Of a stretch of 64,000 bases of DNA, positions 10,094 through 31,372 are shown piece after piece. The DNA is from Scedosporium boydii (lineage: Eukaryota; Ascomycota; Sordariomycetes; Microascales; Microascaceae), in contig NJFT01000140.1 of NCBI GenBank assembly GCA_002221725.1, positions 43,071 through 107,070 on the forward strand, given 5' to 3'. Positions within the stretch are counted from its first letter, which is position 1. Every line of letters starts with the position of its first letter. The notes beneath the pieces were generated by a model. It saw nothing but the letters and a program-made list of their open reading frames with translations, was not told where the DNA came from and did not search any database. Made by a program: the position numbers and the translations under genes.

Positions 10094-10104
10094 AATCTAA
10101 GCTC
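10094..10104 (+). promoter_or_regulatory. Shared 11-bp element, one mismatch (AATCTAAGCTC)
   Basis: It matches WATCTARGCGC except for one base. It lies 330 bp upstream of the permease start in the divergent promoter that also holds the exact copy at 10478. Confidence 0.45.
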
Positions 10105-10477
10105 TTTCACAGTAGTGCCGGATAGCGGAGGAGGTGAGGAAAGCTCAGATCGACGAAAATGTATCGATGTGTACGTGTCACATTCCCTACTACAAGCGAA
10201 GACATTGCTACTTGGGGATGCTAAAACCTGGGGAAAGACCCCACCAACCGGGCATGGTCGTATCCCCCGGCATTACATTCGCGCTAAGAGACAAAACCCC
10301 AACCTCTGCAGCTGGTCTAACCCAAGTTCTTTGGAACCGGGGTCTGAATCGAGGTATGCGCAGGGCCATAACTGGGTCTTATTGTTGACCACCTCAAGTT
10401 TCGCCCAGTAGCGCAAGGTTACCCCCGGATCCGAGAATGCGGGGAACTGGGACCCTGGTGCGGAGAGGTCTGGGCTT

Positions 10478-10488
10478 GCGCTTAGATT
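10478..10488 (-). promoter_or_regulatory. Shared 11-bp element (AATCTAAGCGC), exact
   Basis: Read on the minus strand this is AATCTAAGCGC. It lies 370 bp upstream of the regulator 1 start. The identity with the copy at 31102 extends to 17 bases (CTTATCAATCTAAGCGC). Confidence 0.7.
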
Positions 10489-10857
10489 GATAAGTTTATT
10501 GCTCAGAATGAGCCAATAAGGAGCGGTTTCGAAAATGGTAGCGTAACTGGCGGCTTGCTCAGGTGGAGTAATTACGCAGCTTGCCTCGGCACATCCGTTC
10601 CGTTTTTAGCCCCTTAATTCCTTATCATATCATGGTTTGAAACTGAAGAGATTGACCATCCATAGCTTCACCCCGAGACAACTGCACTACGGCGCTGTGA
10701 TGTGCGGTCGACCGTCATCAGACCAGCTAGTAGCTATGAGTCTATGACGATCAACTAGCCATTGACCCCCATCTTTGTTCTATCATTGTGCCGCGTATTG
10801 ATATGGCAGCTACTCCTTAATTTCGTTTATGCACCTTTATCTCAATGGCAAGTAGAC

Positions 10858-12508
10858 ATGGTCTCAGCAGCTTCTCCTTCCCGGGTTCACTCAGAGCTGA
10901 GGCCACGTCGGTCTCGCTGCAAAACGGGGTGCTCTTGCTGTCGCCTTCGTCGCAAGAAGTGTGATGAGAAGCGGCCCAGATGCACTGCATGCCAGAGGTT
11001 GGACTTAATTTGTTCCTGGCCGGACGCGAATGAGTTTACGTGGCGAATCCGAATGGGCCTCTCGACCCACTCACAGCCGGCGAAGGCGGCTTCAGCGACG
11101 CCGAATACGGCCTCCCCCGTCAGTACCTCCCCGGCCGCGTCTAACCCATTCACCACAATTTCCACAGCCGACAGTGAGATACATTCCCACGAGAGCCATG
11201 GATACCAGGGAGCCTCACCATCATCCCCTCCGTGCTTGCCTCGGCCCGGCTTGTCGCCTCTGCCTCATCAGTCTCAGTGGCTGCTACAGCTGTACTTCGA
11301 AAGGACATCTGAATCCTTGGTCGTCCTTAAGCCTGATACAACCAACCCTTTTATTTATACAGTTCTGCCCTGGGCGTTCAATGACGATCTTATCATGAAC
11401 ACAGTCCTGGCACTTGGAGGTAGCTTTGGAAGCGCTTTAGACGGCGCTACTGAAGAACAGTCTCTCATGTACTACGGCCGTGCTATTCGGCAGCTCAAGC
11501 CTGCGCTGACGATCTGGTCTGGGAGTTCGCTGCGGGAGACACTACGGTTGTTATTGGTAACTCTGTTCCTCTGCTTTTCCGAGGTATGTAGACGAATACT
11601 GCGCTTCTAGGACCCGAAACGAGGATTGAGTGATTACAGAGTGCACGCAGACTACTAATGCCACCAATCCTCCTTAGATGTATCGTGGCAATCGACATGG
11701 AATCTTATTTCACCATCTTCGGGCCTGCAGACACTTTGCCCACGCTGCACACGATGCCTTGAAACGGCGCGAAACGATTGACCGCGAGGACTGCGAGCTA
11801 GCACATCTCCTATTAGAGGCATACGCATTTGGTGACCTGTCTTGCTCGCTACGCCTACTCCCGGACGTCGAGGATACCAAGGCCACCCGTGATTCCCAAG
11901 TGCTCCGGCTCGAATCGATCAGGGAGTTCGAAACCGCTGGTGCCAACTTTGGATGCACCTGGGAGCTATTTAAACTTGTGCCCTGGATCTCCGAGCTGGC
12001 TAGATCGAGGAGGGAAGAGCTGGAAAAGGGTCAAGACTTGGGTTGTTTTGCGGCCTATAGCGACTTGGAAGCCTCCATAGATCTATGGCGCAGCAATATC
12101 CAGGTTCCTGCACTGGCCGTCTCAAACCATCAAGAGGCCTGTGTCGCGGCAGGACTACTCGCCTGTGGCGCAATCACACTCTTTTCCCATACTGCCTACC
12201 ATCAAAACGACCTCGCATACTTACGCGTTGTTGCGGAGCCGCTCGTGGAAGAGGCTATCAAGCTCGTCCACATCTGTGGAGACAGTCCGTGGTCAACATT
12301 CGCCTACTGGCCGACGGTAATCATCGCATCCTTTGCTACCACGGAAAGCCAACAGGTGCGGTTGCGTAATTGGTTCTCGACCGATTTGCACATTGTGAAA
12401 CGCGCCAAGGAGCTCCTTCAATGGGTTTGGGACGCTCCAGATGATGTTTATGGGCTTAGCGGGCTGGCAACGGTGATTGCGGAGCAGAACACGAGCTGGT
12501 GTTGTTAG
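10858..12508 (+). CDS. Zn2Cys6 transcription factor (regulator 1)
   Basis: Exons 10858-11583 and 11678-12508 (94-nt intron, phase 0) give 518 aa. The N-terminal binuclear zinc cluster is complete: C25-x2-C28-x6-C35-x6-C42-x2-C45-x6-C52 (CSCCRLRRKKC, then CTACQRLDLIC). A Ser/Pro/Thr-rich linker (about 65-135) leads into a fungal-specific regulatory domain of the Fungal_trans_2 type, with helical segments such as LLQLYFERTSESLVVL and MNTVLALGGSFGSAL, ending in LLQWVWDAPDDVYGLSGLATVIAEQN. The start at 10858 (MVSAASPSRV) is preferred over the longer open frame, which has no ATG. Its promoter contains the shared 11-bp element, so it may be autoregulated and is a candidate regulator of the locus. 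Confidence 0.85.
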
Positions 12509-13419: not shown

Positions 13420-14975
13420 TTACCTCCTCGAGGACCAAAGAGGCCCGCCAAGGTGCCACCCCGCCCTCCTCTGACGTTGAAAGATGCCATCAGGATCATA
13501 TTTGGCACTGATGGCGTTCAGGAAGGCCTTCGCACTAGGCCCATAGCTGCCATACACATCTTGGAATGGATTGGCGTAATTCAAGTATATATAGTTGTGC
13601 TCCTTACCCAGCCGCTTCGCTTCGGCTTGAGTTTTCGTGGCTGTGGCGCGCAGTGCTTCCCATACCCGTTCGCCCTGGGACTCATCTGTCCAAAACGGCT
13701 CCATGAGGAAAACAAGGAAAGGTTCGGTGTTAGCCAAGCCGAGGGCATTACCTCCTCTTGAACTCATGGCATCAATAATGTTTTGGGTGACAAAATTCAC
13801 ATCCGCTAGGGCGGATCGCTCCATGCCAGGAATGCCGAGGAGAGGGTCGACTTCTGCACGCCATGTGTCCATGAAGAATTTGATGATGCGTTTATCGACT
13901 TTGGTGCAAAAGGTCCAATATCCATTGTGAGCTCCCGGCGGGTAGTGGTCCACGATGCTATCCGCTCGGGCTGTCTGGCTGGTAGGGCCGGTGTTGTCCA
14001 GGCCGGAAGGGACGGAGAGGAGTTTCTTCAGAGGTGAGTTTTCATCTGGGGGGGTTGACTTGAGGTTCTCGACATCGGCGTGCCATACCCATTGGCCTTG
14101 ATGGTTGATCAGACCCAACAGGATACTAGCGTCCACGTTGTTGACGTTATCCTCGCCGTATTCAATGAAGGCGTCAATAATAGCGTCGCTCTGTTCCAGA
14201 GACCAGTTTATGCTACCGCCCCACATGCCTTGGTACGGATAGACGATGAGCTCTAGCTCTGTGACAATGCCAAAGTTGGCACCACCACCACGAAGACATT
14301 TGTAGAGGTCAGGGTAAGACGATTGGCTCGCTCGCACAACACTACCATCAGCAAGCACCACTTCGAATGACAGTACGTTGTCCAGTGCCCAACCGTGGCG
14401 GTTCGAGAAGAATGAGATGCCGCCTGTGAAATGTTTTAGCTATTATCTTCTTGAAGGTCGGAGAGTCGGGAATTTCTTTATTACCGGAGATGACGAATCC
14501 CCCAACCCCAACCGTGGAAGCTCTACCACCTACGGCGGTGAGTCCCCGGGGGTTTAGAAAGCCGAAAACGTCTTTCCACATTTTACCCGGGCCGACATGA
14601 CAAGAGCTCGTATCATCAGATAGCTCGATCTTATTCAAGAGCTTCAGGTCGATCAGAACTCCGGCGGAGATAGATGACTCTCCTTCGCACCTGCCGTGCC
14701 CGCCGCTCTTGATTCCAAATGGACAGCCAGTTTCGCGCAATATCATGACGGCCAAGGCTACGTCCTGGGTGTTGCGAGGCCGGTAGACGCAGTACGGAGT
14801 GCATCGAGATTGGTCTTCGGCCCAGAAACCTTTTCGCGCCTCGTCGTACGCTGGGGTGCCCTGCAAGAGAGTGCACTCTGGCCGAGCAGTGCTCAGCAGT
14901 CTGACCTGCCGTGTCCTAAGTCAGACGATCTGTCACTTGATGGGGTGGAGGGCAACGTACTGTTCGCGTGTCCAT
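13420..14975 (-). CDS. BBE-like FAD-linked oxidase 1
   Basis: Exons 14975-14961 (five codons), 14905-14485 and 14423-13420 give 479 aa. The FAD_binding_4 (PCMH) domain has PFGIKSGGHGRCEGESS, whose His is the usual covalent FAD attachment point, and GLTAVGGRASTVGVGGFVISGG. The berberine-bridge Cys that would make a second FAD bond is absent. The substrate domain ends in the BBE motif YIYLNYANPFQDVYGSYG and KYDPDGIFQR. There is no signal peptide, so it is intracellular, unlike many secreted relatives. The tiny first exon is inferred: a 55-nt intron with GTACGT donor restores MDTRTVRLL before a stretch with no ATG. It probably oxidises an alcohol, amine or ring C-N bond with O2. It is divergent from aminotransferase 1, sharing a promoter with two 11-bp elements. 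Confidence 0.85.
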
Positions 14976-15419: not shown

Positions 15420-15430
15420 AATCTAAGCGC
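15420..15430 (+). promoter_or_regulatory. Shared 11-bp element (AATCTAAGCGC), exact
   Basis: It lies 333 bp upstream of aminotransferase 1 and 445 bp upstream of FAD oxidase 1, in their divergent promoter. Confidence 0.7.
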
Positions 15431-15464
15431 TGCACTGATTTATCCTTACCCCCTCCTTCGTCCC

Positions 15465-15475
15465 TATCTAGGCGC
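15465..15475 (+). promoter_or_regulatory. Shared 11-bp element variant (TATCTAGGCGC)
   Basis: The same variant, with G at position 7, occurs at 28034-28044. It is spaced 45 bp from the exact copy at 15420. Confidence 0.55.
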
Positions 15476-15752
15476 CGACATGATTCACGACCACGATCTA
15501 TCAAGTTTGACCGAGGTACGTCTCCTCGGCAAATTGAAGATATCGTTCCGTAATTGACGCTAGGTACTTGGGTCATCAGTCTGTCCGGAACTTCTCGATT
15601 CACCCATTACTTGGCCAAGTAGAAATAGGCTCTCTTACTACTAATATGCCATTCAAGTCTCTGAGGCTTGGTTAAACAAGAGTGTTAGAATACAGAACCG
15701 AAATACGTAGATTATGCACAAGACGAGGATCCCAGGTGACCAAGGTAATAAC

Positions 15753-17254
15753 ATGGATTTCTCAACTGCGCGGGAGCATCTATCTACGGAGGACTACGTC
15801 CATCTCAACGCCCAATACTGCGCCCCAACGCACACTCCGATCCCCATTGTCCTCGCTGAAGGCCGCGGAGCCCACGTCTGGGATATTGACGGCAATGAAT
15901 ACATTGATTTTCTCAGTGCCTTCTCGGTGGCAAACCAAGGCCATTGTCATCCTCGCATTGTCAGGACCATGATGGAGCAGTGCCAAAAGCTCCCGCTTTG
16001 CACGAGTGCCTTCCAGAATGACAGCTACCCATTGCTGTGCAAGAAGATTTGCGAGGTGAATCGCCGCCCCCAGAGATCGTCGCTGCTGCGTCAACGTCCT
16101 ACCGTGTCGCTAACTTGGATAATGATAATAGCTACTCCAATATGAAATGGCAGCGTCGATGAGCTCGGGATCTGAAGCCGTGGATCTCGCGATTAAAATT
16201 GCCAGGAAATGGGGTTACAATGTCAAGGGAATTAAGCCCGACCAGGCCAAAATCCTGACAGTTACCGGTAATTACCATGGCAAGATTTTGGCGCCTCTAG
16301 GTGGATCATCATTCGCGAGCATCAAAGAGGGTTTGTACGCCTTGATTTTCCTTGATGCGAGCCATGGTGTAGTAGCAAAAAGCTGAGAGATTAGCCATAC
16401 AGGGTTCGGCCCATTCGTCCCCAACATCGGAACAGATGTTGCTGGGTTTCCTGTCCGTTTTAATGAAATAGAAGACATCCGGAAAGCCTTCGAAGCAAGC
16501 GGGAAAGATATTGCGGCCATCATCATAGAATGCGTACAAGGTTATGGAGGCTGCCTCCCCGTGGGACCTGGCTATCTACAAGCCGTCGAAAAGCTGTGTG
16601 GGGAGCATAACATTCTCTTCATCGCGGACGAAATCCAAACTGGCTTTGGCCGAACAGGTAGCCTAATGGCGTACCAGCAGGGAAACGTCAAGCCCGACCT
16701 CGTTGTCGTTGGTAAGGCCTTGACCGGCGGCCTGTATCCAATGAGCATGGTGTTGGGTAGCAGGGACATCATGACTCAGATTAAACCTGGAGAGTAAGCC
16801 TACTATCAACAATTCACCATAGTGCTAGGCGTTTCTGTGCTGACGGTAAACCTGTAGACATAGCTCGACTTTTGCTGCGAACCCTTTGTCTAGCGCAATT
16901 GCCATGGTGGCCATCGATGTCGTCCTTGACGAAGGCCTTTCAGAAAGGGCCCTTCGCCTGGGAGCACAGTTGAGGAATCGCCTGGCCTCAATAAAAACTC
17001 CGCCTCAAGCAAACCATAAGGTAACGGGGCAAGGTCTACTTATGGCCCTGCACCTCGACGAATCGCATCCATCGGGTCGTGTTACGGCGACCCGGCTTTG
17101 TAAACTCGCACTGAAAAAAGGCTTGATTGCCATTCCCACCCAGAATAGGATTCGAATTGCACCTCCATTGACAATCTCAGAGGAGGATCTTTGGAAGGGA
17201 GTCAGCATTTTGGAGGAAGCTCTGAACGAGTTGGTGGTGGTCGAGAAGATTTGA
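15753..17254 (+). CDS. Class III aminotransferase, ornithine aminotransferase-like (aminotransferase 1)
   Basis: Four exons, 15753-16055, 16132-16330, 16403-16793 and 16858-17254, give 429 aa, the normal length of ornithine aminotransferases. The joins restore the family landmarks YEMAASMSSGSEAVDLAIKIARKWGY, GNYHGKILAP, FIADEIQTGFGRTG (PLP-binding D243) and VVVGKALTGGLYPMS (Schiff-base K272), then GEHSSTFAANPLSSA and RIRIAPPLTISEED. It likely moves a terminal amino group of an ornithine-, lysine- or GABA-like substrate to 2-oxoglutarate. It may be a paralogue of the housekeeping enzyme recruited to this locus, because it sits between two FAD oxidases and shares their promoter element. An alternative in-frame ATG at 15714 adds 13 residues. 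No organelle targeting signal is obvious. Confidence 0.88.
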
Positions 17255-17678: not shown

Positions 17679-17689
17679 GCGCTTAGATT
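17679..17689 (-). promoter_or_regulatory. Shared 11-bp element (AATCTAAGCGC), exact
   Basis: Read on the minus strand. It lies 334 bp upstream of the FAD oxidase 2 start, almost the same distance as the 15420 copy has from aminotransferase 1 (333 bp). Confidence 0.7.
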
Positions 17690-17908: not shown

Positions 17909-17916
17909 TATAAAAG
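17909..17916 (+). promoter_or_regulatory. TATA box (TATAAAAG) of FAD oxidase 2
   Basis: TATAAAAG lies 107 bp before the start codon at 18023, a normal fungal distance. Confidence 0.55.
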
Positions 17917-18022: not shown

Positions 18023-19622
18023 ATGGGCCCGTCATCTGAAGAAGTCGATCCAGCCGCACCAGGCACCTCGCCCACGGTAAGTGTCAACGCTCACCACTGT
18101 ACGATCTACATCTCCGTAACCATGTCTTAACCTGAATAGCGAGACGCAATTGCCGCCCTCTGTTCGCTCTGTCCTGGCCGGGTCATTCTGCCCTCATCCG
18201 CCGAGTTCGCCGCCGCCCAGAACTCGTTTTGGAACGCCCTCCAGCGCCAGAAGACACCAGCCTGCTTTTTCCAGCCGACGACCGTTGATGAGGTGAAGCT
18301 GGCGATTGCCGAAGTCCTGCGTGTGAATTGTCCCTTTGCAGTTAAAGGAGGCGGCCACTCTTCCAACTCGGAGGGGTCAAGCATCCAGGACGGTGTCCAG
18401 TTCGATCTCATCAACCTCAATCACATTGAGATCGCAGAGGACGAGAAAACTGTTAGAGTCGGACCTGGTGTTCGCTGGGGGCCGCTCCTTCAAGTTCTGG
18501 AAAAGCGCGGACTGATAGCTGTTGGCGGACGCGATTTCGGTGTCGGTGTTCCTGGGTTCATTTTTGGCGGTAAGTTCTTTTACTCTCATGCGAGCGGAGG
18601 ATGACATTTATGAATAAGTGATTCTTATCATTTCCGAAGGTGGTATTTCATATTACTCTGCCAAACACGGCTGGGGAATCGATAATTTGGTGGCTGTGGA
18701 TATCGTCCTGCCTAGCGGCAAACTTGCTACCATCGATAACGCATCTTACCCTGACCTTAACAGAGCTCTCCGTGGAGGTGGGATCCACAACTTTGGCATT
18801 GCAACGAGCTTGACACTCAAGTTGCACCTGTATAATGGTATGTGGGGCGGTATCAATATCATTCGGGAGAAGCACTTTGATGCAGTCTTCAACACGTACG
18901 AAAAGTACACCTGTGACCTGCTCCGAGACGACAAAGCCCACTTGATACTGGACTTTTTCCGAGATAACGGCGAGATGCTGGTCTTGCAGTGTATAGGCTA
19001 TACGGAGCCAACGGCGGATCCGCCTATCTTCGACGAACTTCGCGGCATACCCAGCACCCTTTGTACTCTCCGGCTTTCTGAGTACAGCGACTTGGCTGCG
19101 GAAATTTCCCAGGTGACAGATTCGCGGGGGAAGCGGAATGCTTATTGGACACTCTCCATGGAGTACGACATTGGCCTGCTTAGATCTGCCTTTACACTCT
19201 GGGCCGAGATGACGGAGCCGTATGCGAGCCGCTTGAGATTCGCTTTCGATGTCAACCACATCACCCCCGCCATGAGGAATAAAGCGGCGGCGGAAGGAGT
19301 GGGCAACGTGTATAGCCTAGAGGGTTCAGATGAGTCACTCACTAACATCCTGCTCACTGGTGTGTGGGAGGATGAGTCTGACGATAGGGAGGCTATGGCA
19401 GTTTTGAGGAGTGTAGGCCTTGCAATCAACGCTTTGGCGCGACAGGAGGGTAAGAGCCGCACCTTCGTATACATGAATTACGCAAACCAGGAACAGGATG
19501 TTATTGCTGGGTATGGGGAAAAGAACGGGCAGTTTTTGGAGGAAGTCTCTGCTAAGTATGATCCCGAAGGCGTGTTTCAGAGACTAAACCAAGCGTGTTT
19601 CAAGCTCCGAAAAGCAGAGTAG
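18023..19622 (+). CDS. BBE-like FAD-linked oxidase 2
   Basis: Exons 18023-18076, 18140-18569 and 18640-19622 give 488 aa. It is a clear paralogue of FAD oxidase 1: PFAVKGGGHSSNSEGSS with the flavin-linking His, GLIAVGGRDFGVGVPGFIFGGG with Val-Pro where bicovalent enzymes have Cys, ISYYSAKHGWGIDNL, and the C-terminal FVYMNYANQEQDVIAGYG and KYDPEGVFQR. The last intron falls at the same glycine as in FAD oxidase 1, which supports a shared origin, while the sequences have diverged strongly (N-terminus, LRGGGIHNFGIATS against LRGGGANFGIVTE). No signal peptide. It probably catalyses a second oxidation in the same pathway. Its promoter has the 11-bp element and a TATA box. Confidence 0.88.
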
Positions 19623-19947: not shown

Positions 19948-21854
19948 CTAGAGCGCGTGCAACTCTTTGAGGACGGTGGCCCACCCGTCGTCTTTGGAAA
20001 AGGGCAGCGCATCAACAGGGCAAACCGTCCCCGGCTCCGGGAGTTCCCCGCGCTCAAAATACGCAATGGTCCTCTCTGCTGTGCATTTGGAGGCCTGCGG
20101 CAAGATTGTATGCTGATTTTTCCAAGGTTAGTAACGAGTGATGGCTCTCAAACAGGAATAAAACAAGAAGAAACCTACCCCGTAACCTTCCTGCTCAAGT
20201 ACGACGCTTCCCTTCCAACTAGAGCTCATGTTTTTCGCCGATGCGAGCGGCGAGACGGGGTCGTTCTGCGTGCTGATGAGGAGTACCGGATGGGCTGGAT
20301 CGACGCGAAAGTCGCCGGTGTATCGCTCTTTGGCGTCCATTTTCCATCGTGAGCATTGGATGGCACTGATGTCGGAAATGTCGCCGCCAAGCCTGCTCAG
20401 TGCCCACCTGGTCTTGACGCCAGGTATCACGTCGTCGATGGTCTCTAAGCGTATTTGCTTGTCGCCACATTTGATTCCAAGGATGGCATCCGCATCAGGC
20501 GGGCTCTCACCGACCAACCCAGTAGCTGCACCGGCTAGTTGAGTGAGGATCCCGGTGGCATTCCCGGTTATCAAAACCTCAAGAGCCTGGGCCAAGCGGG
20601 GCCAGCGTATCGGAAAGTACATATCGCTGTAGATCATGCTCTTCAGGGTCGGGTAGTCGACAATGACCCCCGATCCACTAGGGAGGGTTAGCGGGATCGG
20701 ATTGTACTTGAGCTTGTCGAGAGCGGCGTAGATGTCTGCCTCGAGCTGATCTGCAGTGCGGTTACCTGCTAGAGGACAGCGGTCACGCGCAGCAACGCAC
20801 TGGGAGCAGAACCCAGAGAATGCGCTATCCACGTCCGTTACTTGCTCCAAGTCCCTTCCATATTGGTTAGTTGTCTTGCCGGCCGATGGTGGAACGAAAC
20901 AGTTAGGGGCAGACTTACTCCCGGTAATACTCGTGTGAATTCATGACGCCATCCAGCAAGACTCGGTCGACCCTGTCAGGCCACATGGCAATCAAGGTAG
21001 CGCCCAGCACCGAGCCATACGACATTCCTGGGAGGGGACATTCGTTCGTTAGTAAGGGTAGGTCGGCTGGGAGAGCTTGGTCATATACTCACCCCAGTAT
21101 CTCAGCTTGCCGTCTTCTTCAAGTACGTCCACCGCTGACATGATGTCTCGTGCAGTGAATGCGGTTCCGATGAGCGATCCGGTCTCGTTTTGGGCCTTTC
21201 GACATGCCTCCGCGCGGAGCTCAGCCTCAGCCCAGACCCTTCCGAGAGCGACGTCCGAGGCGTTTGTAGAAAACAGCGCTGTGCTTTCGGCCGCCGTCCT
21301 TTCATTCTGTTTTTCGTAGCAGGAGAAGGGCAAGGTATTTCCAGTTCCACTATGCCACGAGAGAAAGTCAGTCTCTTCGGGTCCTTTAGGCAGGGTGGTG
21401 GGACCAAGACCTACCGAGGAACGACATTGATGATATCGTAAGAACCCCCGGAGAGACTACCGAAAACTTGTGTAAGCCGAAAAAGAATTTCCCGGTCTCT
21501 CCTATGGTATTACGTTACATGCATTCTGAAAAGACGGCCATAGTAGGCCATTTCCAATATTCCACTGCCGCCGGGACCGCCAAAGTTCATAAACACGCTT
21601 CCCCTTTTGGGGGTCTTGGCGGCAGGAATTCTCATGAGTTGGATATCGAGCATTTCGGCCGCGGAGTCATCAGTATAGTCGAGAGGGACGGCCAAGTTGC
21701 CACAAAACAGGTAGTCAGTGTCGTTGACGCCGAGGTGGGCGCATGATCCCCAATGGATCTGGTTATTGCGACGATCGAATTGGTGATGGCGCGGGTTCGG
21801 GGGCGCGCCCCAAGTTGTCGACAAGATGAGGGAGAACAAGAGAGCGACCTTCAT
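19948..21854 (-). CDS. Secreted alpha/beta hydrolase, TAP/prolyl-aminopeptidase-like
   Basis: Six exons (21854-21514, 21456-21415, 21349-21093, 21027-20919, 20854-20179, 20112-19948) give 529 aa. A signal peptide (MKVALLFSLILSTTWG) precedes the mature protein. Landmarks in order are the oxyanion loop MNFGGPGGSG, the strand YDIINVVPRGTGNT, the nucleophile elbow YWGMSYGSVLG, the acid LLISTQNDPVSPLASA and the catalytic His in EGYGHTILPQ, which only appears after the last splice. Cysteine-rich insertions (FCSQCVAARDRC) are typical of secreted fungal members. It probably removes N-terminal residues from peptides, or hydrolyses esters, outside the cell. The first intron (57 nt, CTTAC branch point) is the least certain. 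It is divergent from regulator 2. No 11-bp element is seen here. Confidence 0.85.
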
Positions 21855-22527
21855 TGTTGGAAGGAGGACGGGGAATGTACTAAGAGAGGAACTGATTGTT
21901 GGGAGATGGGGAGAGACGATAGAGATGGGCAGGCGTCACCCTTAAATACGGCAAAGGTCATGGATGACTTGACCGGAAACCCCTGAATGGCTTCCGTGAT
22001 CATGTTGGCAGAGTGGATTGTTCAGCTAAGCTAGACAATAATTACTGAGATTTCATTGTTTGTGGATCGTCAATATCAACACTGGCTTACATCCAGCCAG
22101 GAGTCGTGAAGGATTCATCGAGAATCGAGTACTCTCTCATTGGGCGGACAACTTTGGCGCTAGTTCCCTTTTGGCGAAACGATGCGCTTGCAGGCGACGT
22201 CATCAAACTGACCCTGAGACTCTGAGCTGACTGCAGGTTCGCCAAGTTCGCCAAGACTGTAAGCCCTAATTGGGGGCGCCGAAGTGGTTGCTTCCTTGGA
22301 CAGATTTCCCACCGACATGACTGGCAGACGGGGTTGGAACGGAGATGATCGGTCGCCACACGTCCTTATAATAGAGTCTGCGCCTTTCGATTCGGACTTG
22401 TTGTCCCGAGCTTTCCACCCTTGCACGCTTTCTTTTGCCCGAAATCTAGATTGGCCGCCTCATTCCTTATCTCCTGTTTTTGGCTAAACTGCGCGCATCG
22501 TTGATCGATCGACGATCGACGAACTTA
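21855..22527. promoter_or_regulatory. Divergent promoter: secreted hydrolase and regulator 2
   Basis: A region of 673 bases between the two starts. On the minus strand TATTTAAG near 21943-21950 could be the hydrolase TATA box. I see no copy of the 11-bp element of the flanking genes. A run GATCGATCGACGATCGACGA lies just before the regulator 2 start. Confidence 0.5.
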
Positions 22528-24214
22528 ATGGCTGGGGTTCCGACTAGCCGCGGCTGCGATGCATGTCGCAAACAGAAGAAAAAGGTCAGGCCGCACCCCT
22601 ACCAAGATAGTTACGGGCTAGCCCGAAACACCACCAGCGTTGCGCAGTGACTAACTGCAGTGGTGTAGTGCGACCTTGCTCAGCCAGCGTGTGGAAGATG
22701 CCAGCGTCTAAGGATACCCTGCGTCGGCTGTGGCGCGAAGCGCTTCAAGTTCAAGCAGGAAAGACCTGCTTCTCCTGCGTTCCGTGCCGAGCTGCGTACT
22801 GCCTCCGGATCTACATCCCCGATATCGGCTGATCGTCCCGCTCCCGCGGCAGCACTCACGATCAAGCTCGTTCCGAGCGACGAGCACGGCCGGCGCAGAG
22901 GTGCCTTGGTCAGTATTTTGAGCATCTCGGACCTGCGGTATGACATATCGAGCTGTGGCAGCTTTCTTCAAGAGTTGCCCCAACGTATGGGCCGAAACCC
23001 GGCCCTGGATGCCTCGATCGACGCCCTGACCAGTGCGTACACGGCTCTCCGCACACAGGCCAAGCCACCGGACGTATTTTCCGCTTACGCCAATGCGCTG
23101 AGGTGTCTGAGGATGGTCATGGAAACTTCCGAGACGGCTCAGACACCAGAGACCCTCTGCGCCATTTACCTCGTCATGATATGTCAAGTGAGTCGGGTCC
23201 TCCATATCCTCCAAACTCGACTTCGCAATGTGGACGAAGACGCATACGTTTCTAATGCCCTAGATCACCGTAGGCCTGGATCGGAAACCCCGACGACCAG
23301 TATGTGGCCCATTCGGAAGTGGTGGTTCATGTGTTAAACTGCATCGCAACGAATAACTGGACTGGTAAATTCGAAACGCAGCTTTTCGTCACATTGTGCA
23401 TGTCGATTGTAAGACCCGGCCTCCTACGAGAAATTATACGGGGGCTATCTACTAAAATTCACCTCGTATCATTAAATAGTTGCCGGAGAGCATCTATAAC
23501 CCGAGGATCAATCTGGGCCCATGGTTCAAGAAAATGGTCGACGATTTCACTCCGCACAAGACAACATCCATGAAGAACGGGGGCCCAGGCCCTGCCCTGA
23601 GCATGCTCACCTTTGCCAGGCTCATCGAGTTCGTACGGGATTCCGGCGGCACCGGCGACGCCACAGAGATTGAAGTGGCGTACGAAGGCATCATGCGCGA
23701 GGTGGGCCAGGCTCGGGAGACTCTCATCCGACTATTCCCCGACACGAGCGGGACGCTACTCAGTGAAGGGGGCGGCCGCCCTATCTTGCCGGCCACCACG
23801 GGTGGTGAGAGGGAGAGGGTGCATATGCTCTGTGTGGCGCAGCTGGCGATGCTACTAGCCATGGGGATGCTGGTGAACAGCGTGCTCGGGGCCGTCACCC
23901 TCGACGACCGCGAGCTGCAGGAGCAAGTGTCTGGGTTTCCAGACGAGCTCGTCGGTCTGGGCAGGGTCGTGGACCGGTACAGGCCTCTCGGGGCCGGATT
24001 TATCCCAGTGTGCCTGTTGGTCGGATGTGTATCGACCACCAACGAGGCGAATCTGACCCAGATGACCGAGGCAATGAAGATGTACAGTTCTAATCCGATG
24101 CAGATGAACTGGGAGGTTTGGTCCACGGAGATGAGGGAGGCATTCCAGACCCTGAGGTACAATATGTCGTTGCGGCGACACACGAAGGATAGCCTTAATA
24201 TGTCAGGGTATTAG
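22528..24214 (+). CDS. Zn2Cys6 transcription factor (regulator 2)
   Basis: Four exons, 22528-22584, 22669-23187, 23274-23408 and 23480-24214, give 481 aa. The first intron splits the zinc cluster: C10-x2-C13-x6-C20-x6-C27-x2-C30-x6-C37 is only complete after splicing (CDACRKQKKK joined to CDLAQPACGRC). The rest is the aflR/Fungal_trans_2-like all-helical domain: CAIYLVMICQ joined to AWIGNPDDQYVAHSEVVVHVLN, then IYNPRINLGPWFKKMVDDF and TFARLIEFVRD, as in regulators found near fungal metabolite clusters. It is transcribed away from the secreted hydrolase. The 11-bp element is missing from its promoter, so it may act in a separate unit from the flanking metabolic genes. Confidence 0.85.
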
Positions 24215-24738
24215 AATTTAGAATAGCGGCGGAATAAAGTAAACAGCGCCAACCGGACGCTGGTGATCGGGCGACCCGTCAAATGTCGTCAGATTACGGA
24301 GTACTTCGTAAAGGTAGAGGTGATAAAATCTCTTGGGCGGCTCTTCCTAATATCTAAGTGTGTGCCTAGTCCTTAATCTTGGTGGTACCTTAATAAAGCT
24401 TCCATTTGCCCCAAAATCGTCGTGTAAGCATTGGAAATTCATCAACAATGTCCGCCCATTCTCTATTGGTCCCGACCTGCTGTTGAGCCTGCCGAAGCGC
24501 AACACGTCGCCATATTGGGACTAGTCAAATTGCTGCAGGGCTTCGTGGCACTAGTAATACAGGGCGCAGACTTGGCCTGCATTTCTCAGCCAACATGAGG
24601 TCAGACATCATCGAACCCCTCTTAGATGACGCCCATGTCCAAAAGACAAGGTGGCATGGCCCAACTATAAATGATGGGGAGAAAAAAAAAAAGAAGGGGG
24701 AATGGATCTCGGGAAGACTGCAACAGCATCACCTGTTG
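24215..24738. other. Intergenic before tubby-like gene
   Basis: About 520 bases. It contains a string ATCTAAGTGT at 24352-24361 that resembles a decayed 11-bp element with two C-to-T changes, and a purine run near 24680-24700. The frame of the next gene stays open back to 24595, but that part is not protein-like. Confidence 0.4.
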
Positions 24739-25326
24739 ATGACCGCAACATCACCACTTAACAACATGTCGTTTACCCCATTCTCAGTAAACACTCTTTT
24801 CCTCACCCAGTCGTGGCACGACGCAAATGTCTCCATCCTACACTGGTCGACACAGGGCGTTGAGGCGCCAGTGCTCGTCATCAGGACATCGAAGACAACG
24901 CCCCCACACATCATGTTGTTTCCCAATAGCTCAGATCCCAACACTACTATCGGCCATGTCACGTTTCCCGGAAAGTCGTCGGCAGAGATATCCCTGCGAG
25001 GGTTCCCCATACACATGAAGATGAACCCATGGTCTTCGAGTTGCATGGTGGAGGGGGGCGATTTGGGCAGGTTCAAGTACAAGCAGGAGGAGAAGATGGG
25101 AAGCGAGGCGCTAGATCTATTCGTGATGCACGGGGACGGCGAGGGGCAACGGATCGCGCGGATCGACAGGGCGGGGAAGGGACAGAAGAAGATTGAGCTC
25201 TTCAGCCAATTTGACGGGATTCATTTCGAGATGCTAGTCTTGACCGCCCTGTCAGCGTGGGCAATTCACAAGAAACTGGACGGCGCAATCTTGAAGGGAA
25301 TCGGGGAGCTTCTATTTTCGGCATAG
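24739..25326 (+). CDS. Tubby C-terminal-like (LURP-one-like) fungal protein
   Basis: A 195-aa intronless protein starting MTATSPLNNMSFTPFSVNTLF; an alternative start is at 24766 (MSFTPF). The order of short beta strands fits the tubby/LURP-one C-terminal-like fold found in many small fungal proteins: WHDANVSILHW, PVLVIRTS, PHIMLFP, TTIGHVTFPG, AEISLRG, DLGRFKY, QRIARIDR, KKIELFSQ, and a single terminal helix FEMLVLTALSAWAIHKK. Such proteins probably bind lipid or act as scaffolds, but biochemical roles are mostly unknown. The upstream extension is low-complexity (a polylysine run from an A-rich tract) and is unlikely to be translated. It sits between regulator 2 and the monooxygenase with no sign of co-regulation. 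Confidence 0.6.
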   Translation: MTATSPLNNMSFTPFSVNTLFLTQSWHDANVSILHWSTQGVEAPVLVIRTSKTTPPHIMLFPNSSDPNTTIGHVTFPGKSSAEISLRGFPIHMKMNPWSSSCMVEGGDLGRFKYKQEEKMGSEALDLFVMHGDGEGQRIARIDRAGKGQKKIELFSQFDGIHFEMLVLTALSAWAIHKKLDGAILKGIGELLFSA

Positions 25327-25867
25327 GGCAACCCAAGTATCAGAATCACCATCGCCTTTAAAGGCGCGGCTCTGTACCAGACGCTTTAGAAAGTTACAGA
25401 CATGTCTTAGAGTATAATAAGTTATATCTCACAATAGGCTCTGTTGAATCACGCCGACCCAGCATGAATTCTTCGGCCCTCCTTCTCCCTTCTCCCTTAT
25501 CCGGGATGCTCGTCTACTCCGACTACTTCACCGCGTTCGAGGGGCTCGACAGTCCTTGTTTCATCACAACCCCCACGATCCTGGCCGTGCCCTCATTGAC
25601 GACGAGTTAAGTAGAGAAGCTGAGTAGGACTGGCGAGGACTGATATAACGGTGAGCTGAGGTTGAGCTAGGAGACAAGGGACCATAAACGGACCTCTCAC
25701 GAGGGCTAAATCTTGTGCACTTTTTTTCTTTGAATATTATATCAAAACAAAGTAAAAACAATAAAAAAAGGGGATAAAAACGAAAAAAAAAAAAAAGACA
25801 AAAAGAAAGAAAGGAAACTCTAAAAATATACACAACACTTACAGAGCTCGCCAGAGTGCAACGGCTT
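25327..25867. other. Intergenic with A-rich tract
   Basis: About 540 bases between convergent genes. The A-rich tract at 25730-25815, including A14 at 25783-25796, would be the 3' flank of the monooxygenase on the minus strand. No gene seen. Confidence 0.4.
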
Positions 25868-27798
25868 CTAGGGGCTCAATTTTACAGGGCGGATATCCAG
25901 ACCAGGAAGACCCTTTTGAGACGCCCAAGCTTCAATTTCCTTAATATAATCCAATATACCCGGTGTCCATGGGGAATGCCTTGCCAAGGCCAACTGTTGC
26001 TCCGGAGACTTGAGAGCCGAAAGCTGGGCCTCCCGAGTAAGATAGCTCGGGGTGCAGTTGACCATTGCCGCTAGACCGTGGGCCGTACTCATGATCTTGG
26101 CTACCCATTCGGCTTCGCCTTCCACAGTTGGCTCGATTATTGCCTTGGCTCGTTCGCCAACTTGTTCTTGGGCTCTGCTGATGATTTTAGCCACATGAGT
26201 GGCATAGGTGTCAATCATATGCACTTGGTTGGCAGCAGGGGCCGCCTGTGTAGTTCCTGGCAATACAAGGTTCGGAAAGCCCCGCGTGAAGAGGCCCTGA
26301 AACGTCCCTAGGTTGTTCTTCCATTTATCATCCATGGACAGGCCATCCCGGCCTGTAACAGTCATACCTGCGCAGTAGGCCGGGCTGCCGGCACCCCAAG
26401 GCTCAAAGCCAGTGCTGAAGACGATGAGATCGACATCGTAACACTGCCCGTCATAGGCGAGGCCAGTCTCGGTAATCTTCTCGACGCCCTTCCCCTTTGT
26501 GTCTACCAATTGGACGTTGGACTTGTTGAAGGCGGGGAGGTATTCATCGTGGAAGCAGGGACGCTTGCACCACCCAGGGTACCACGGCTTGAGGCCCTGT
26601 GCCGTCTCCTTGTCTGTGACTAGCTTATCGACACGGGCTCGGATTCGTGCCTGACGCGGCAAGTCCAAAATATGCAGCTGGGCTACGTATGCCTCCGTGC
26701 CATCCGGCGGGAGATTCTTGATGGAGGGACACCCGACAAGGCCGCTATAGGACGGGAAATGGGTCCAGGCGTCGTCCACAAGATTCACTGTTGGTTTATC
26801 CGGTGCATTTGTCGTAAAGGCGGCGAAATTTTCTCTTCTTTCCCTCTGCCAGCCCTTGTGCGAACAAGTGGCTTTGAATTCCTCGACGTCGATAAGGCGC
26901 TGACCACGGGTGTCTACCGATGAAGCAGTCCGTTGGAACACGTAAAGTTTTCCGGCCCATTTCGCGAGCTCTGGCACTGCTTGAATGGCTGTAGCTCCCG
27001 TCCCGATGATGGCCACCTTTTCGTCCTTCAGGTTGCTCAGCTCGGGATGTTGCTGTGAGCCTCCGGTGTAATGATAGTCCCACCTCGAGGTATGAAAGGC
27101 ATGGCCCTGGAAACTTTCCACGCCTGGGATCAATGGCAGCTTGGGATGAACCAATATCCCACTGGCTATGATTAGAAAGTCGGCGCGCATGGTAATATCG
27201 TGCTCATTTCCATCTGGGAGCTTCCTTCGGATGACAACTTTCCATTCTGCCGCGTTTTCATCCCAATCAGCACTTTTGGCGGTAGATCGGAACAAGGCGT
27301 TGCGCTCAAGGTCGTACCGCTGGGCAATGCTTTCGGCATACTGCCTCAGCTCCGAGCCGTATGCGTACCTGTGTTTCGGAATGTAGCCAGTCTCTTCCAA
27401 CAGAGGCATATAACTGCAGCTTTCGATATCGCACATGAGACCAGGATATCGGTTCCAGTACCAGGCCCCGCCGAACCCATTCGCGATATCCACCAGGGTT
27501 ATGTCCTCGGAAGACACACCGACCTCTGAGAGGCGGGCGGCGTACGTAAGTGCCCCGAATCCGGCGCCGGTAATCAAAAATTTGTGTGGGTGCCGTTGGG
27601 ATCATCTTGGCGACCTCGCTGAGGCTGACTTGGGTCATACCAAGGGTCTGCTGCGAAGTGCTTCCACTTCTCGGAGCGTGTAGTGTCGACGAATTGCCCG
27701 AGACCTTCGGCGCGATATCGTTTGAATCGCTCTTGGTCGTATTTGTCTTCGATTTCCCCAAGTTGTTCGCCGTTCAAGTCTTGTTCTAGTGAAGGCAT
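25868..27798 (-). CDS. Baeyer-Villiger-type flavin monooxygenase with one-base frameshift
   Basis: Two overlapping frames form one gene of about 640 aa. The N-terminal part (27798 to about 27580) gives MPSLEQDLNGEQLGEIEDKYDQ through ADPWYDPSQP and THTN. The main part (27577-25868) starts KFLITGAGFGALTYAARL, the FAD Rossmann motif. Other landmarks are NGFGGAWYWNRYPG, the Baeyer-Villiger fingerprint FQGHAFHTSRWDYH, the NADPH motif AIIGTGATAIQ, LIVFSTGFEPW and the C-terminal LVLPGTTQAAP. The frames join if one A is restored in the ACAAATTTTTG run near 27577-27583; no intron fits. This is either a recent lesion or an assembly error, and the rest is intact. It inserts oxygen next to a ketone or oxidises a heteroatom. 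Divergent from aminotransferase 2, with four copies or variants of the 11-bp element between them. Confidence 0.8.
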
Positions 27799-28033
27799 TG
27801 TTGATAGGGAGTGACAATCGTAAGTGGTAGCAGTGTCGGGTGTCAATTGATAAGGTATGGGGAGTCCAACAGTCTCCAATGGTTGACTATTAGCTTCAAC
27901 TATTCAACATCAGTGCAAGCATCACTGTTAGAACGTACCTAGCCGGGGTATATAAGTCTCTAGCAGCCCCCTTAGAAACTACTTCTTGGGTGCAGCGGGG
28001 ACTAAGAGTATGTCTATGCTAGTGGCTTTCTAA

Positions 28034-28044
28034 TATCTAGGCGC
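28034..28044 (+). promoter_or_regulatory. Shared 11-bp element variant (TATCTAGGCGC)
   Basis: Identical to the 15465 copy over all 11 bases. It lies 236 bp upstream of the monooxygenase start. Confidence 0.55.
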
Positions 28045-28379
28045 ATCAATGGTATCAATGGGCTGTTTGAGAACACGCAATTAGTGCTTAGGCGAAGCTT
28101 CGGCTCTCGTGACAAGATGTGACAGACATCAACTAAGCAACCTTTCACTTCCATTCTACAATCTAACCGCCACTGATGTTGATAAACGTTTTTGAATGGA
28201 TACATGCCCGATGTTCCATGCCTCTACTCGAATCGCAGGAGGCGAACCACGATGGGAACCGGTCGGATTCCCCACTCACTCGCTCCCTCGCGGAGCGGAA
28301 CTTTTCAGTCCGGCAGGCTTAGCGACCCAGGAATTTTATGGGCTCCTTAAGGCCGAGCATCCAGAATGCCCGAAACCCT

Positions 28380-28390
28380 GCGCTTAGATC
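28380..28390 (-). promoter_or_regulatory. Shared 11-bp element (GATCTAAGCGC), core exact
   Basis: Reverse orientation. It lies 582 bp upstream of the monooxygenase start and about 1.0 kb upstream of aminotransferase 2. Confidence 0.65.
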
Positions 28391-28826
28391 GGATACATCA
28401 CAATCTTCAGCTTCGGATCAATCAGACAACCCGCAATTTGCCTTGGCAGCGCTGGCGGGGCGATATTGACCTGTGCGTCGTTGCTAACGGATTCCGTACG
28501 GAGGGTACGTCGGCAGATACACAGGCTTCTGAGTCGAGAGTGTGCTATCAAAAACCGAAGAGGATGGCTATTGCACCACCTCCGGGGCGTTTAGATAAGA
28601 TAAGATGGTAGGCAGGGGTACATAGGTGTCGGGCGGTCGAAAAAATGGCCCTAGGCGGCACTATTGATCTAGTCTCAATGAGGTGAAAACGCGGCATAAG
28701 AAGCAATACGTAGACTGTGGGTCGGGACTAGTGGATTTCTCCGCAGCGCCGTAGCCCGTTGTGGCACAGTGTCATCATCGACGAGGGCCACGACCCGAGC
28801 TCGCAAACATCTGCCTGTCCACACAA

Positions 28827-28837
28827 GATTTAAGCGC
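28827..28837 (+). promoter_or_regulatory. Shared 11-bp element, one mismatch (GATTTAAGCGC)
   Basis: A C-to-T change at the fourth position. It is part of a 16-base near-repeat (GATYTAAGCGCTGCCA) with the copy at 29025. Confidence 0.55.
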
Positions 28838-29024
28838 TGCCACACGTTGAGATTGAGCGAATGGATTGTCAGCCCCCTCCTCACCTCTGCGGGAGTCGAG
28901 GTGGTTAGGTCACGAGTGGGCTTGGCTTCGGGGTTGAGAGGTGGCAAGGGGGACCCTCGCATGCTACGGTTGTATGCAAGGATGTAGGTCTCGAAACATG
29001 GAATCATGGAACCTCATTAGCACA

Positions 29025-29035
29025 GATCTAAGCGC
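29025..29035 (+). promoter_or_regulatory. Shared 11-bp element (GATCTAAGCGC), core exact
   Basis: It lies 353 bp upstream of the aminotransferase 2 start, close to the 333-334 bp spacing seen before aminotransferase 1 and FAD oxidase 2. Confidence 0.65.
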
Positions 29036-29387
29036 TGCCATGAGCCACAATTCAACAGGACGATACTGAGCTGTCAGCTGGTCTCTATGCATGCCATTCT
29101 ACCTCGATCTTCCTTGTTTCTCTACCTTGTTCTTAGCTCCGACAGTTGTTCTGGATCCGAGGTATGGGACCATGGGACACTCGGCCCGAGGAAATATGCC
29201 TATCGAAGCGTCACCCAACGTCACAAAGGCGAATCTTCTCTTCCCTCAGTCAATATATTGGGTCCGCGGTGTTGGCCACACCTCACTCTGCAGACGGCAC
29301 GATCCGTGATAGATGCTTCTGCGTCGCTCAAGCATCTTTCTTTGAGTCACTTCACGACGTGTAAGCCCTAGACTCACATCCGCAAGC

Positions 29388-30756
29388 ATGAGTTCCCCTT
29401 CGAACGCGCAACCAGCCCAGCGCACGCCAGCCCAGCAACACCTCCAGCTGCAAATTGACAAGTACATCAAGGACAACCCAAAATCGGAAAAGATAGTCCG
29501 CGAAGCTGGTCCCGTTCTGCCTGGCGGGACGACGCGAGCTGTCCTCCTTTACACGCCATTCCCTCTGGTCTTTTCCGGTGGCAAGGACGCCTACCTCCGG
29601 TCCGTCGATGGCGAAGATTACTTGGACTTCGTGTCCGAATACTGCGCGGGCATGTTCGGTCACTCACACCCTGACATTGTGGCCGCAATTGACTCCATCG
29701 CCAAACGTGGATTCACTCTAGGCGGAGCCACGGAAACCGAGGGTGAGCTGGCGGCGGCTCTGACCCAGCGGTTCCCCAGCGTCGATGCCATCCGCTTCTG
29801 TAACTCTGGAACAGAGGCCAACACACTTGCCGTCGCCACGGGCCTTGCCTACACGCAGAGAAAGAAGGTGAGCCGCACATCACTATGAATGTTCTATACA
29901 CCCCCCTTCAAAACTTGCGAGCTGGAATCTGACACCCCTCTGCGCAAACCAGGTTATGGTCTTCGAGAACGGCTACCATGGCGGCACTCTGTCCTTCTCA
30001 CGGGCAAACCCAATGATGCTCCCGCACCAGTTCACGTACGGCATCTTCAACGACATCGAGCGGACTCGTGCAAAAATCGACCCGGAAGTAGGCGTGATCA
30101 TTGTTGAGCCGATGCAATTCGCTGGGGGCTTGGGGGTGTCATCCAAAGACTTCCTGCAATTTCTCCGCGACGAGGCCACGAGGATCGGCGCAGTCCTCAT
30201 CTTTGACGAGGTTGTTACGTCGAGGTTGTGGTATGGCGGCATGCAGGAGTACTACGGCATAATACCCGATATGACGACTCTCGGCAAGCACTATGGTGGC
30301 GGATTCTCCTTTGGCGCTTTTGGTGGTCGCCGGGCTATCATGGATCTCTTCACTCCCGGCGCTCCACGGGGTCTGTATCACTCAGGAACGTGGAACAACA
30401 ACGCCTTCACCATGTCAGCCGGGGTGGTGGCAACCAAACTCCTGTCTAGAGAGGCCATAGCTAGGACAAATGACCTCGGCGATGCTCTACGAGATGGCCT
30501 CCGTGACATCTTCTGCCCCAGAGACCGTGAGTTAGTCATACTGGCTGGATTCGGAAGCGTCGTCGGCGTGAAATTTAAGGGTCCTGAAGGGGATAAGTGG
30601 AGGGATGTATTCTACTTCTATCTGCTCAACAACCGTATATACATTGGACACAGGGGCTTCTTGGCATTGAACCTTACACATACTCAAGAGCATGTAGCTC
30701 GTGTACTCGAGGTAGTTAGGAGCTTCTGTAGAGATACGGGGATAGCCTTCTATTAA
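29388..30756 (+). CDS. Class III aminotransferase, glutamate-1-semialdehyde aminomutase-like (aminotransferase 2)
   Basis: Exons 29388-29867 and 29953-30756 (85-nt intron, phase 0) give 427 aa. It is built like glutamate-1-semialdehyde 2,1-aminomutases and related class III enzymes: VLPGGTTRAVLLYTPFPL, the substrate loop YCAGMFGHSHPDI, RFCNSGTEANTLAV, FENGYHGGTLSF, FDEVVTSRLWYGG (PLP Asp235), MTTLGKHYGGGFSFGAFGG (Schiff-base K262) and HSGTWNNNAFTMSAGV. Fungi make haem by the Shemin route and do not need a true aminomutase, so this is more likely a specialised aminotransferase on an amino-acid- or amine-like substrate. A copy of the 11-bp element lies 353 bp upstream. No targeting peptide is apparent. 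Confidence 0.87.
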
Positions 30757-31372
30757 TGCCTACCTTTATTATTGAACTCAACTTGGACAGGATCTTGGTA
30801 TATGCATGTCTTAAGAGTGAGGCAAACCTCGGCTCGCTCTGTACATATAGTAAACAATAAGGGTCGCGGTCCCACCTCGCTTCTCGAAGCATCAGACTTT
30901 GAGGAAGTGTCATTCTTACAAGGTTGGGACAAACAAAGCAACCCTTACTGGAAAAGAAAAAAAAAGTACAGAAGTTGGAACGCTGTGGACAAATTCAACG
31001 CGAGGTGACTGAAAGACCGGGATTTTGGATAGCGGAAAGGCGGGGAACCTGTGGACTCAGGGCTCAAGTGCACGCGTGGGGAAGTCCGTTTAATTCTTAT
31101 CAATCTAAGCGCCCCGTCACGGCCCCATGGGGAAATGGGGAAATTCGGGATTCGCTGAGGGACGATGTACTACCCAGCTCTGGAATACGCGATACCGAGA
31201 ACCTGTTCTGAGTCATACGGCTCTAACTAAGCATTTCGACCCTTAAAATACCAGAGGGTCTCATATTATGTGTCGCATAATGTGGAAGACGGACCGGAAC
31301 TAAGCAGCTTCTTGACTCGTCCTCATATTTCCCCATCTTTATAACTCGAAGTCGATCGAACAGATATTGACG
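30757..31372. promoter_or_regulatory. Promoter region of regulator 3
   Basis: About 615 bases after aminotransferase 2. It contains the exact 11-bp element at 31102-31112. No gene seen. Confidence 0.5.
31102..31112 (+). promoter_or_regulatory. Shared 11-bp element (AATCTAAGCGC), exact
   Basis: It lies 271 bp upstream of the regulator 3 start. The identity with the copy at 10478 extends to 17 bases. Confidence 0.65.

Follow-up and report, generated by a model that had tools for sequence, protein, structure and literature searches.

In a stretch of 64,000 nucleotides from the ascomycete Scedosporium boydii (contig NJFT01000140.1, positions 43,071 to 107,070; hereafter referred to as the window), the 10-bp sequence ATCTARGCGC is probably the operator of a pathway-specific regulon. 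This regulon would extend over two unlinked paralogous gene clusters, located at 8-33 kb of the window and at 180-239 kb of contig C20 of the same genome. The candidate binding protein is regulator 1, a predicted Zn2Cys6/Fungal_trans_2 activator that is encoded once per cluster. Its binding sites would be single 10-bp sequences without symmetry, usable in both orientations and located for the most part 240-800 bp in front of the target genes, its own gene among them. Genes for permeases, FAD oxidases, a monooxygenase, transaminases, a P450, an amine oxidase, a reductive aminase and regulators would be the targets. Regulator 1 would probably share this control with a GATA factor of the AreA type that binds to neighbouring HGATAR sites. 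Under nitrogen limitation, and in the presence of the substrate or of a compound derived from it, these genes would be switched on together, and an amine or beta-amino acid would be imported and broken down. Taken as a whole, the explanation of a two-locus regulon with ATCTARGCGC as operator and regulator 1 as binder appears to us likely, though not certain. The motif, its placement, its specificity in the genome, its persistence in the paralogous cluster, its proximity to GATA sites and the intact zinc cluster of regulator 1 were all computed directly. An initial annotation of the window had already proposed a pathway-specific operator; the genome-wide specificity, the absence of repeat flanks and the occurrence of the motif in a paralogous cluster support this proposal, and from them we infer the operator function.

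Enrichment of ATCTARGCGC at two loci

The initial annotation had listed six exact copies of ATCTAAGCGC and four one-change forms in the window. All of these were recovered at the positions given below and the copies are real, but some of the starts listed were those of the 11-mer WATCTARGCGC, one base before the start of the 10-mer. We use ATCTARGCGC for ATCTAAGCGC together with its variant ATCTAGGCGC, which gives 8 sites in the window and 21 in both clusters (17 of ATCTAAGCGC and 4 of ATCTAGGCGC). In the promoter names, BVMO stands for the Baeyer-Villiger-type monooxygenase, and AT1 and AT2 stand for aminotransferases 1 and 2.

10095..10104, plus strand: one-mismatch form ATCTAAGCTC (weak), permease/regulator 1 promoter
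10478..10487, minus strand: putative operator copy ATCTAAGCGC between the divergent permease and regulator 1 genes, CTTATCA (GATA) adjoining its 5' end
15421..15430, plus strand: putative operator copy ATCTAAGCGC, FAD oxidase 1/AT1 divergent promoter
15466..15475, plus strand: putative operator copy ATCTAGGCGC, FAD oxidase 1/AT1 promoter
17679..17688, minus strand: putative operator copy ATCTAAGCGC, before FAD oxidase 2, GATAAG 8 bp 3'
28035..28044, plus strand: putative operator copy ATCTAGGCGC, BVMO/AT2 divergent promoter, on the side of the monooxygenase
28380..28389, minus strand: putative operator copy ATCTAAGCGC, BVMO/AT2 promoter
28828..28837, plus strand: one-mismatch form ATTTAAGCGC, BVMO/AT2 promoter, matched in the alignment by an exact copy of the C20 AT2 promoter
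29026..29035, plus strand: putative operator copy ATCTAAGCGC, before AT2, aligned with C20:234436
31103..31112, plus strand: putative operator copy ATCTAAGCGC in the regulator 3 promoter, CTTATCA adjoining its 5' end, counterpart in the alignment at C20:236627

In dinucleotide-shuffled versions of the window, ATCTAAGCGC was present on average 0.07 times, and six copies were reached in 0 of 100 shuffles. Further one-mismatch forms, absent from the initial annotation, were found at 28161 (ATCTAACCGC) and 28587 on the minus strand (ATCTAAACGC), both in the BVMO/AT2 promoter, and outside the cluster at 57024 (ATCGAAGCGC). The window contains 13 matches to the 11-mer with at most one mismatch, the exact ones counted in, where 3.0 are expected; by themselves, the one-mismatch forms are weak evidence.

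We searched the whole genome (42.9 Mb in 442 contigs, the window being located on contig C140) and found 51 copies of ATCTAAGCGC, 6 of which are in the window, 11 in about 55 kb of contig C20 (C20:182077-236636) and 34 scattered. The density of the scattered copies predicts 0.051 copies for the window and 0.064 for the 80 kb of C20 that were fetched (Poisson P = 2e-11 and 2e-21, respectively). In other words, 17 of the 51 copies lie within 144 kb, where about 0.12 would be expected. The motif is over-represented in the cluster promoters relative to the whole genome. The initial annotation had named a genome-wide search as a check, and outside the two loci the motif is near background, with 34 scattered copies of ATCTAAGCGC versus 30 genome-wide copies of the reversed pattern that served as a control. 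For ATCTAGGCGC the genome-wide count is 54 (4 in the two loci and 50 scattered) and that of its reversed pattern 44; the genome totals obtained for the 11-mer WATCTARGCGC were 50 and 35.

A ranking of all 10-mers by the number of intergenic regions of both loci that share them gave the same picture. ATCTAAGCGC ranked first, being present in 12 of 21 regions (5 of 11 and 7 of 10), while the best 10-mer in each of 200 Markov resamples reached 2 regions (2 times), 3 regions (185 times), 4 regions (12 times) or 5 regions (once). The 8-mer parts of ATCTAAGCGC were also at the top with 12 regions, compared to at most 8 in the resamples, and none of 20,000 letter permutations of ATCTAAGCGC exceeded 5 copies across both loci, compared to 17 for ATCTAAGCGC itself. 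Two other words were noted in these sequences. The word TGGGGAAA is present in 8 of the 21 intergenic regions (3 and 5), a number that the best resampled 8-mer reached in 3 of 200 cases, and the 10-mer GTACTCCGTA/TACGGAGTAC, perhaps a repeat end, occurs twice in the window and six times in the C20 stretch.

When 3 kb around each of the 34 scattered copies of ATCTAAGCGC was inspected, the gene predictions put 7 copies into coding sequence and another 3 into introns. A tblastn comparison of the cluster proteins with these 34 surroundings gave no match at 1e-3, and no third regulon locus was found among them. One mixed pair of sites is located on contig C2 (343933 and 347512, 3.6 kb apart), the second of them within an open frame of 782 codons. 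CTTATCAATCTAAGCGC was not found in viral contigs, and among openly licensed papers, judged from titles and the beginnings of abstracts, no use of the 10-mer in either orientation in fungal gene regulation was found.

Placement of the sites upstream of cluster genes

The initial annotation had described the copies as intergenic. This applies to 8 of 8 ATCTARGCGC sites in the window and to 21 of 21 sites in both clusters, the intergenic share of the sequence being 32% in the window span and 49% in the C20 islands. The gene counts refer to 11 curated genes of the window (8-33 kb) and 11 of C20, several starts having been set by hand. Small models (window 25464-25610; C20 172485, 174039, 201618, 204253, 208364 and 238469) were left out, and an antisense window model at 18127-19474 was replaced by FAD oxidase 2, which was located by homology. 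An upstream ATCTARGCGC site is present for 18 of the 22 curated genes, that is, for 8 of the 11 window genes from the permease to regulator 3 and for 10 of the 11 C20 genes, where the nearest site is 257-1178 bp away. Over all 21 sites, the distance to the nearest modelled start (starts being predicted) ranges from 236 to 1178 bp with a median of 352 bp, and it is at most 500 bp for 16 of them; given this range, a fixed spacing is absent. The earlier statement that three copies are located 333-353 bp from a start codon was borne out for AT2, whose ATG at 29388 is 352 bp away; for regulator 1 and AT1, the predicted starts give 370 and 283 bp, respectively. The hydrolase, regulator 2 and tubby-like genes had been described as devoid of the motif, and in our window gene models they do lack an ATCTARGCGC site; in addition, none of them has a paralogue on C20 at E<=1e-3. 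We read these three genes as non-members of the regulon.

Persistence of the motif in a diverged paralogous cluster

The region C20:180-239 kb is a rearranged and diverged paralogous cluster. It encodes FAD oxidase 1, permease B, a P450, an amine oxidase fused to a RidA-type domain, regulator 1, a monooxygenase, a reductive aminase-like protein, permease A, FAD oxidase 2, AT2 and regulator 3. Identities to the window proteins are 46-48% for FAD oxidase 1, 48% for permease B, 54-64% for the monooxygenase, regulator 1, regulator 3 and permease A, 75-77% for FAD oxidase 2 and 84% for AT2. With identities of 46-84%, the C20 cluster is not a recent copy. The motif has been kept in its promoters, where it precedes genes of the same types as in the window and three additional genes.

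Seven paralogous promoter pairs could be compared. The site is found at the same aligned place in three of them (AT2, regulator 3 and permease), and in the other four (FAD oxidase 1, FAD oxidase 2, monooxygenase and regulator 1) both members have sites at places that do not align. Each pair alignment was compared with 12 shuffles; only the promoters of AT2 (0.56, best shuffle 0.46) and regulator 3 (0.71, best shuffle 0.43) aligned above chance, the remaining five pairs, including permease, being no better than their best shuffle. Genes present in one cluster only have sites as well, namely AT1 in the window and the P450, amine oxidase and reductive aminase genes on C20. The initial annotation had also raised the question of a dispersed repeat; around the 21 sites, the information content stays below 0.4 bit at every flanking position out to +/-30 bp.

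The next paralogues of AT2 and of the monooxygenase, outside the two clusters, lack the motif. No site, even with one mismatch, was found in the 17 kb fetched around the AT2 paralogue on contig C119 (54% identity), or in the 8 kb fetched around the monooxygenase paralogue on contig C27 (49%). The C119 gene (within C119:75001-85000) is a third AT2 paralogue with an N-terminal extension, and by eye it adjoins amidase-like and FAD oxidoreductase-like genes. On C20, degraded AT2-like fragments at 209280-209640 and 217965-218404 (the latter a weak match, E 0.007) are apparently relics of further copies.

The C20 gene islands have about 50% GC and are separated by AT-rich blocks (174-180, 182-199, 218-228 and 240-252 kb), in which the gene finder placed no gene; of the 40 two-kb bins of the C20 stretch, 22 have 21-37% GC. 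In the AT-rich bins, the CpG observed/expected ratio is 0-0.11 for 10 of the 22 and 0.19-0.82 for the others, and TpA/ApT is 1.25-1.86, as would be expected of repeat-induced point mutation.

Candidate binding protein and adjacent GATA sites

Regulator 1 has only two close copies in the genome, one at each motif-rich locus. They are 58% identical, and the next genome match covers residues 14-122 only (E 1.8e-11). Both copies have all six cysteines and near-identical zinc clusters. The only close copies of regulator 3 are likewise located in these two loci. In a gapless alignment, however, the window copy of regulator 3 is without the fourth of the six ligand cysteines and the C20 copy is without the fifth and sixth; the loss of different zinc ligands suggests that the DNA-binding domain of regulator 3 is decaying independently in each cluster. 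Because its zinc cluster is intact while that of regulator 3 is short of ligand cysteines, regulator 1 is favoured as the best candidate for the binding protein. We infer that it acts as an activator and that both loci are cross-regulated.

Searches for regulator 1 homologues outside this genome scored about 8000 candidates that share most words, so the absence of others means little. Among these candidates we found P0001 (37%), P0002 (34%) and the metagenomic protein P0123 (49%). P0001 is from Cladophialophora immunda, a black yeast relative that also has an AT2 homologue, P0054 (51%). The contigs of both proteins have 555,775 bases and are probably the same contig, which suggests a related cluster in this fungus.

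HGATAR sequences are located within 20 bp of 9 of the 21 cluster sites (8 of 17 ATCTAAGCGC and 1 of 4 ATCTAGGCGC), compared to 11.6% of random intergenic positions (binomial P = 3e-4) and 1 of the 34 scattered copies of ATCTAAGCGC (Fisher P = 3.5e-4). A search of the 42.9 Mb for the composite YTTATCA(N)ATCTARGCGC gave four matches, every one of them within the clusters (before permease/regulator 1 and before regulator 3 in both loci), and its reversed control gave none. This suggests, by analogy, joint control with an AreA-type GATA factor.

Several points weigh against the proposed regulon or parts of it. The association with GATA sites was tested post hoc, after CTTATC had been noticed beside a few sites, and the homologous site pairs in these statistics are not independent. 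The excess of HGATAR also fades with distance, from 11 of 21 sites versus 24.6% within 40 bp (P = 0.006; scattered copies 4 of 34) to 12 of 21 versus 35.8% within 60 bp (P = 0.04) and 15 of 21 versus 51.7% within 100 bp, which is no longer significant (P = 0.054). Classical Zn2Cys6 sites carry paired CGG triplets in inverted, everted or direct arrangement; the 10-mer contains neither CGG nor CCG, and its flanks show no conserved second half-site within 30 bp. Copy number does not single out regulator 1, since regulator 3 is confined to the same two loci. Some of the promoter pairs also have sequence in common, owing to the divergent arrangement of several promoters. On C20, permease B has no site, and the site of regulator 1 (210145) is separated from the start by 1178 bp that include a fragment resembling a Tc1/mariner transposase (210578-210904); the presence of this fragment may account for the distance.

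Cluster genes and the predicted pathway

The genes of the window cluster are as follows.

8049..9764, minus strand: amino acid permease (AA_permease_2), in two modelled pieces (8049-9248 and 9429-9764)
10858..12508, plus strand: regulator 1, Zn2Cys6 and Fungal_trans_2, exons 10858-11583 and 11678-12508
13420..14920, minus strand: FAD oxidase 1 (FAD_binding_4), start uncertain, C20 counterpart as above
15714..17254, plus strand: AT1, class III, no full C20 counterpart
18140..19622, plus strand: FAD oxidase 2, placed by homology where the gene finder preferred the opposite strand, identity to the C20 counterpart determined by exon
19948..25326, strand not assigned: hydrolase, regulator 2 and tubby-like genes, without site or C20 paralogue
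25868..27798, minus strand: flavin monooxygenase, C20 counterpart 54-58% identical
29388..30756, plus strand: AT2, beta-phenylalanine transaminase-like
31373..32564, plus strand: regulator 3, Zn2Cys6 with five of the six zinc-ligand cysteines (four in the C20 copy)

The window permease is 64% identical to C20 permease A over 397 amino acids. AT1 has acetylornithine and ornithine aminotransferases as best solved relatives, and the first ~200 residues of FAD oxidase 2 resemble a flavin-dependent oxidase (9p1p), EncM and 6-hydroxy-D-nicotine oxidase. Among solved structures, AT2 comes closest to the beta-transaminases 2yku (E 7e-94) and 4ao9, a beta-phenylalanine aminotransferase (E 6e-92), and several of its fungal homologues carry beta-phenylalanine transaminase as their source name. 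The best match of the C20 monooxygenase is 5mq6, followed by phenylacetone monooxygenase, a type I Baeyer-Villiger enzyme. The C20 dehydrogenase-like protein has a RedAm-like_C domain and is closest to the imine reductase 5g6r, and the C20 amine oxidase, with a RidA-type domain (PF01042) in front, is closest to monoamine oxidase B. A possible link of the latter to fumonisin amine oxidases was dropped, passages of PMC9415688 and PMC11861864 giving no support for a common domain layout, and it is not claimed here. The hydrolase matches the Pfam family Abhydrolase_4, and no Pfam family was found for 'regulator 2' and 'tubby-like' at E<=0.001. A PhzF-like gene (PF02567) at 5913-6905 of the window adjoins the cluster but is not included among its members; its coding sequence contains a one-mismatch 11-mer at 6655.

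As a first guess, based on analogy with known enzymes, these proteins would serve to break down an amine or an aryl beta-amino acid, because the acetophenone-type ketone arising from a beta-phenylalanine route could be oxidised by a Baeyer-Villiger enzyme. A more specific reading holds that the two unlinked, diverged clusters form one regulon, that both regulator 1 paralogues act on both loci through one and the same new Zn2Cys6 site, asymmetric, 10 bp long and with a built-in GATA composite, and that they control an undescribed fungal beta-amino acid or amine route via transaminase, Baeyer-Villiger monooxygenase, amine oxidase and reductive aminase. In this full form we put it forward only tentatively, as somewhat less than an even chance; if true, it would provide a native pathway for a fungal reductive aminase.

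Alternative explanations

The word ATCTAAGCGC occurs 51 times in the genome, and its grouping might therefore be a chance cluster of a common 10-mer. The concentration of a third of its copies in the two loci, together with the different behaviour of permuted words, leaves this practically no probability; as a mere background motif it is already refuted by the whole-genome counts. It is also very improbable that the motif is functionless, either as residual identity from duplication of the cluster or as part of a dispersed repeat. The AT2 (56%) and regulator 3 (71%) promoter pairs, which align above shuffled sequence with the site at the same place, would be compatible with such a residue. Against it stand the flanks of the 21 sites, which carry no information, the four promoter pairs that keep a site without alignable sequence, the sites before genes of a single cluster, and scattered copies that are close in number to those of the reversed pattern. 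On the basis of the flanks and of the promoters that no longer align, we rejected both the repeat and the duplication residue.

Two other explanations keep the operator and differ in what surrounds it. The binder could be regulator 3 or a factor encoded elsewhere, as the presence of regulator 3 in both clusters, with no other close copy, and the absence of CGG triplets from the motif would allow. The missing zinc ligands of regulator 3 (one in the window, two on C20) speak against it, while a global factor should use the motif elsewhere, yet the scattered copies are near background; we therefore consider another binder improbable, but considerably less so than a functionless motif. A stronger competitor, though still unlikely in our view, is a biosynthetic regulon under the same operator that makes an amine-containing natural product, which overlaps with the preferred explanation in everything except the role. 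P450s, EncM/BBE-like FAD oxidases, imine-reductase-like proteins and transaminases also serve as tailoring enzymes, and gene islands in AT-rich surroundings are a known setting of fungal natural product loci. However, no polyketide, peptide, terpene or prenyl synthase was found among the Pfam-scanned cluster pieces or the C20 paralogues, the AT-rich C20 gaps not having been domain-scanned. In addition, three amino acid permeases are present, and the GATA sites beside the operator fit with the use of a nitrogen source.

Implications and comparison with known systems

If the proposed regulon is right, pathway members can be recognised by one short word at two genomic places without expression data, and can be told apart from the three genes lying between them; the word would also be the predicted target sequence of a zinc-cluster regulator that carries a Fungal_trans_2 domain. 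The regulon would further provide a test case for common control of paralogous clusters after long divergence, and the reductive aminase-like enzyme and the RidA-fused amine oxidase would gain a defined pathway context.

In its mode of action, the system would resemble pathway-specific operators known from metabolite and catabolic clusters of fungi, with the less common feature that one word unites two unlinked, diverged clusters. In the hxn nicotinate-utilisation cluster of Aspergillus nidulans, which is controlled by HxnR and the GATA factor AreA, transporter, oxidoreductase and regulator genes are likewise clustered for the use of a nitrogen compound under a specific activator and AreA (PMC5746545). 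HxnR is a Cys2/His2 protein, whereas regulator 1 is of the Zn2Cys6 type, and the enzymes differ; AreA control has been shown there and is suggested here by sites only, and here there are two unlinked paralogous clusters. Over-represented promoter motifs in 19 metabolite clusters of Fusarium graminearum supported the cluster calls (PMC4198257), and in both cases a motif enriched in cluster promoters relative to the whole genome marks co-regulated genes. The Fusarium candidate clusters were predicted around polyketide, peptide or terpene synthases, none of which was seen here, and our test includes a diverged paralogous cluster. Zn2Cys6 factors with non-CGG sites are represented by XYR1 (GGCTAA, single GGC(A/T)3) and ACE2, which share with the present candidate a zinc-cluster regulator and short single sites without CGG triplets; the sequence here, ATCTARGCGC, differs, and the likeness covers the type of site (PMC5468973). 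Finally, bacterial degradation of beta-phenylalanine starts with a transaminase, and the resulting keto acid decarboxylates to acetophenone (PMC6150868). AT2 may similarly transaminate beta-phenylalanine, with the difference from the route outlined in that source that the system here is fungal and that a further Baeyer-Villiger step would follow.

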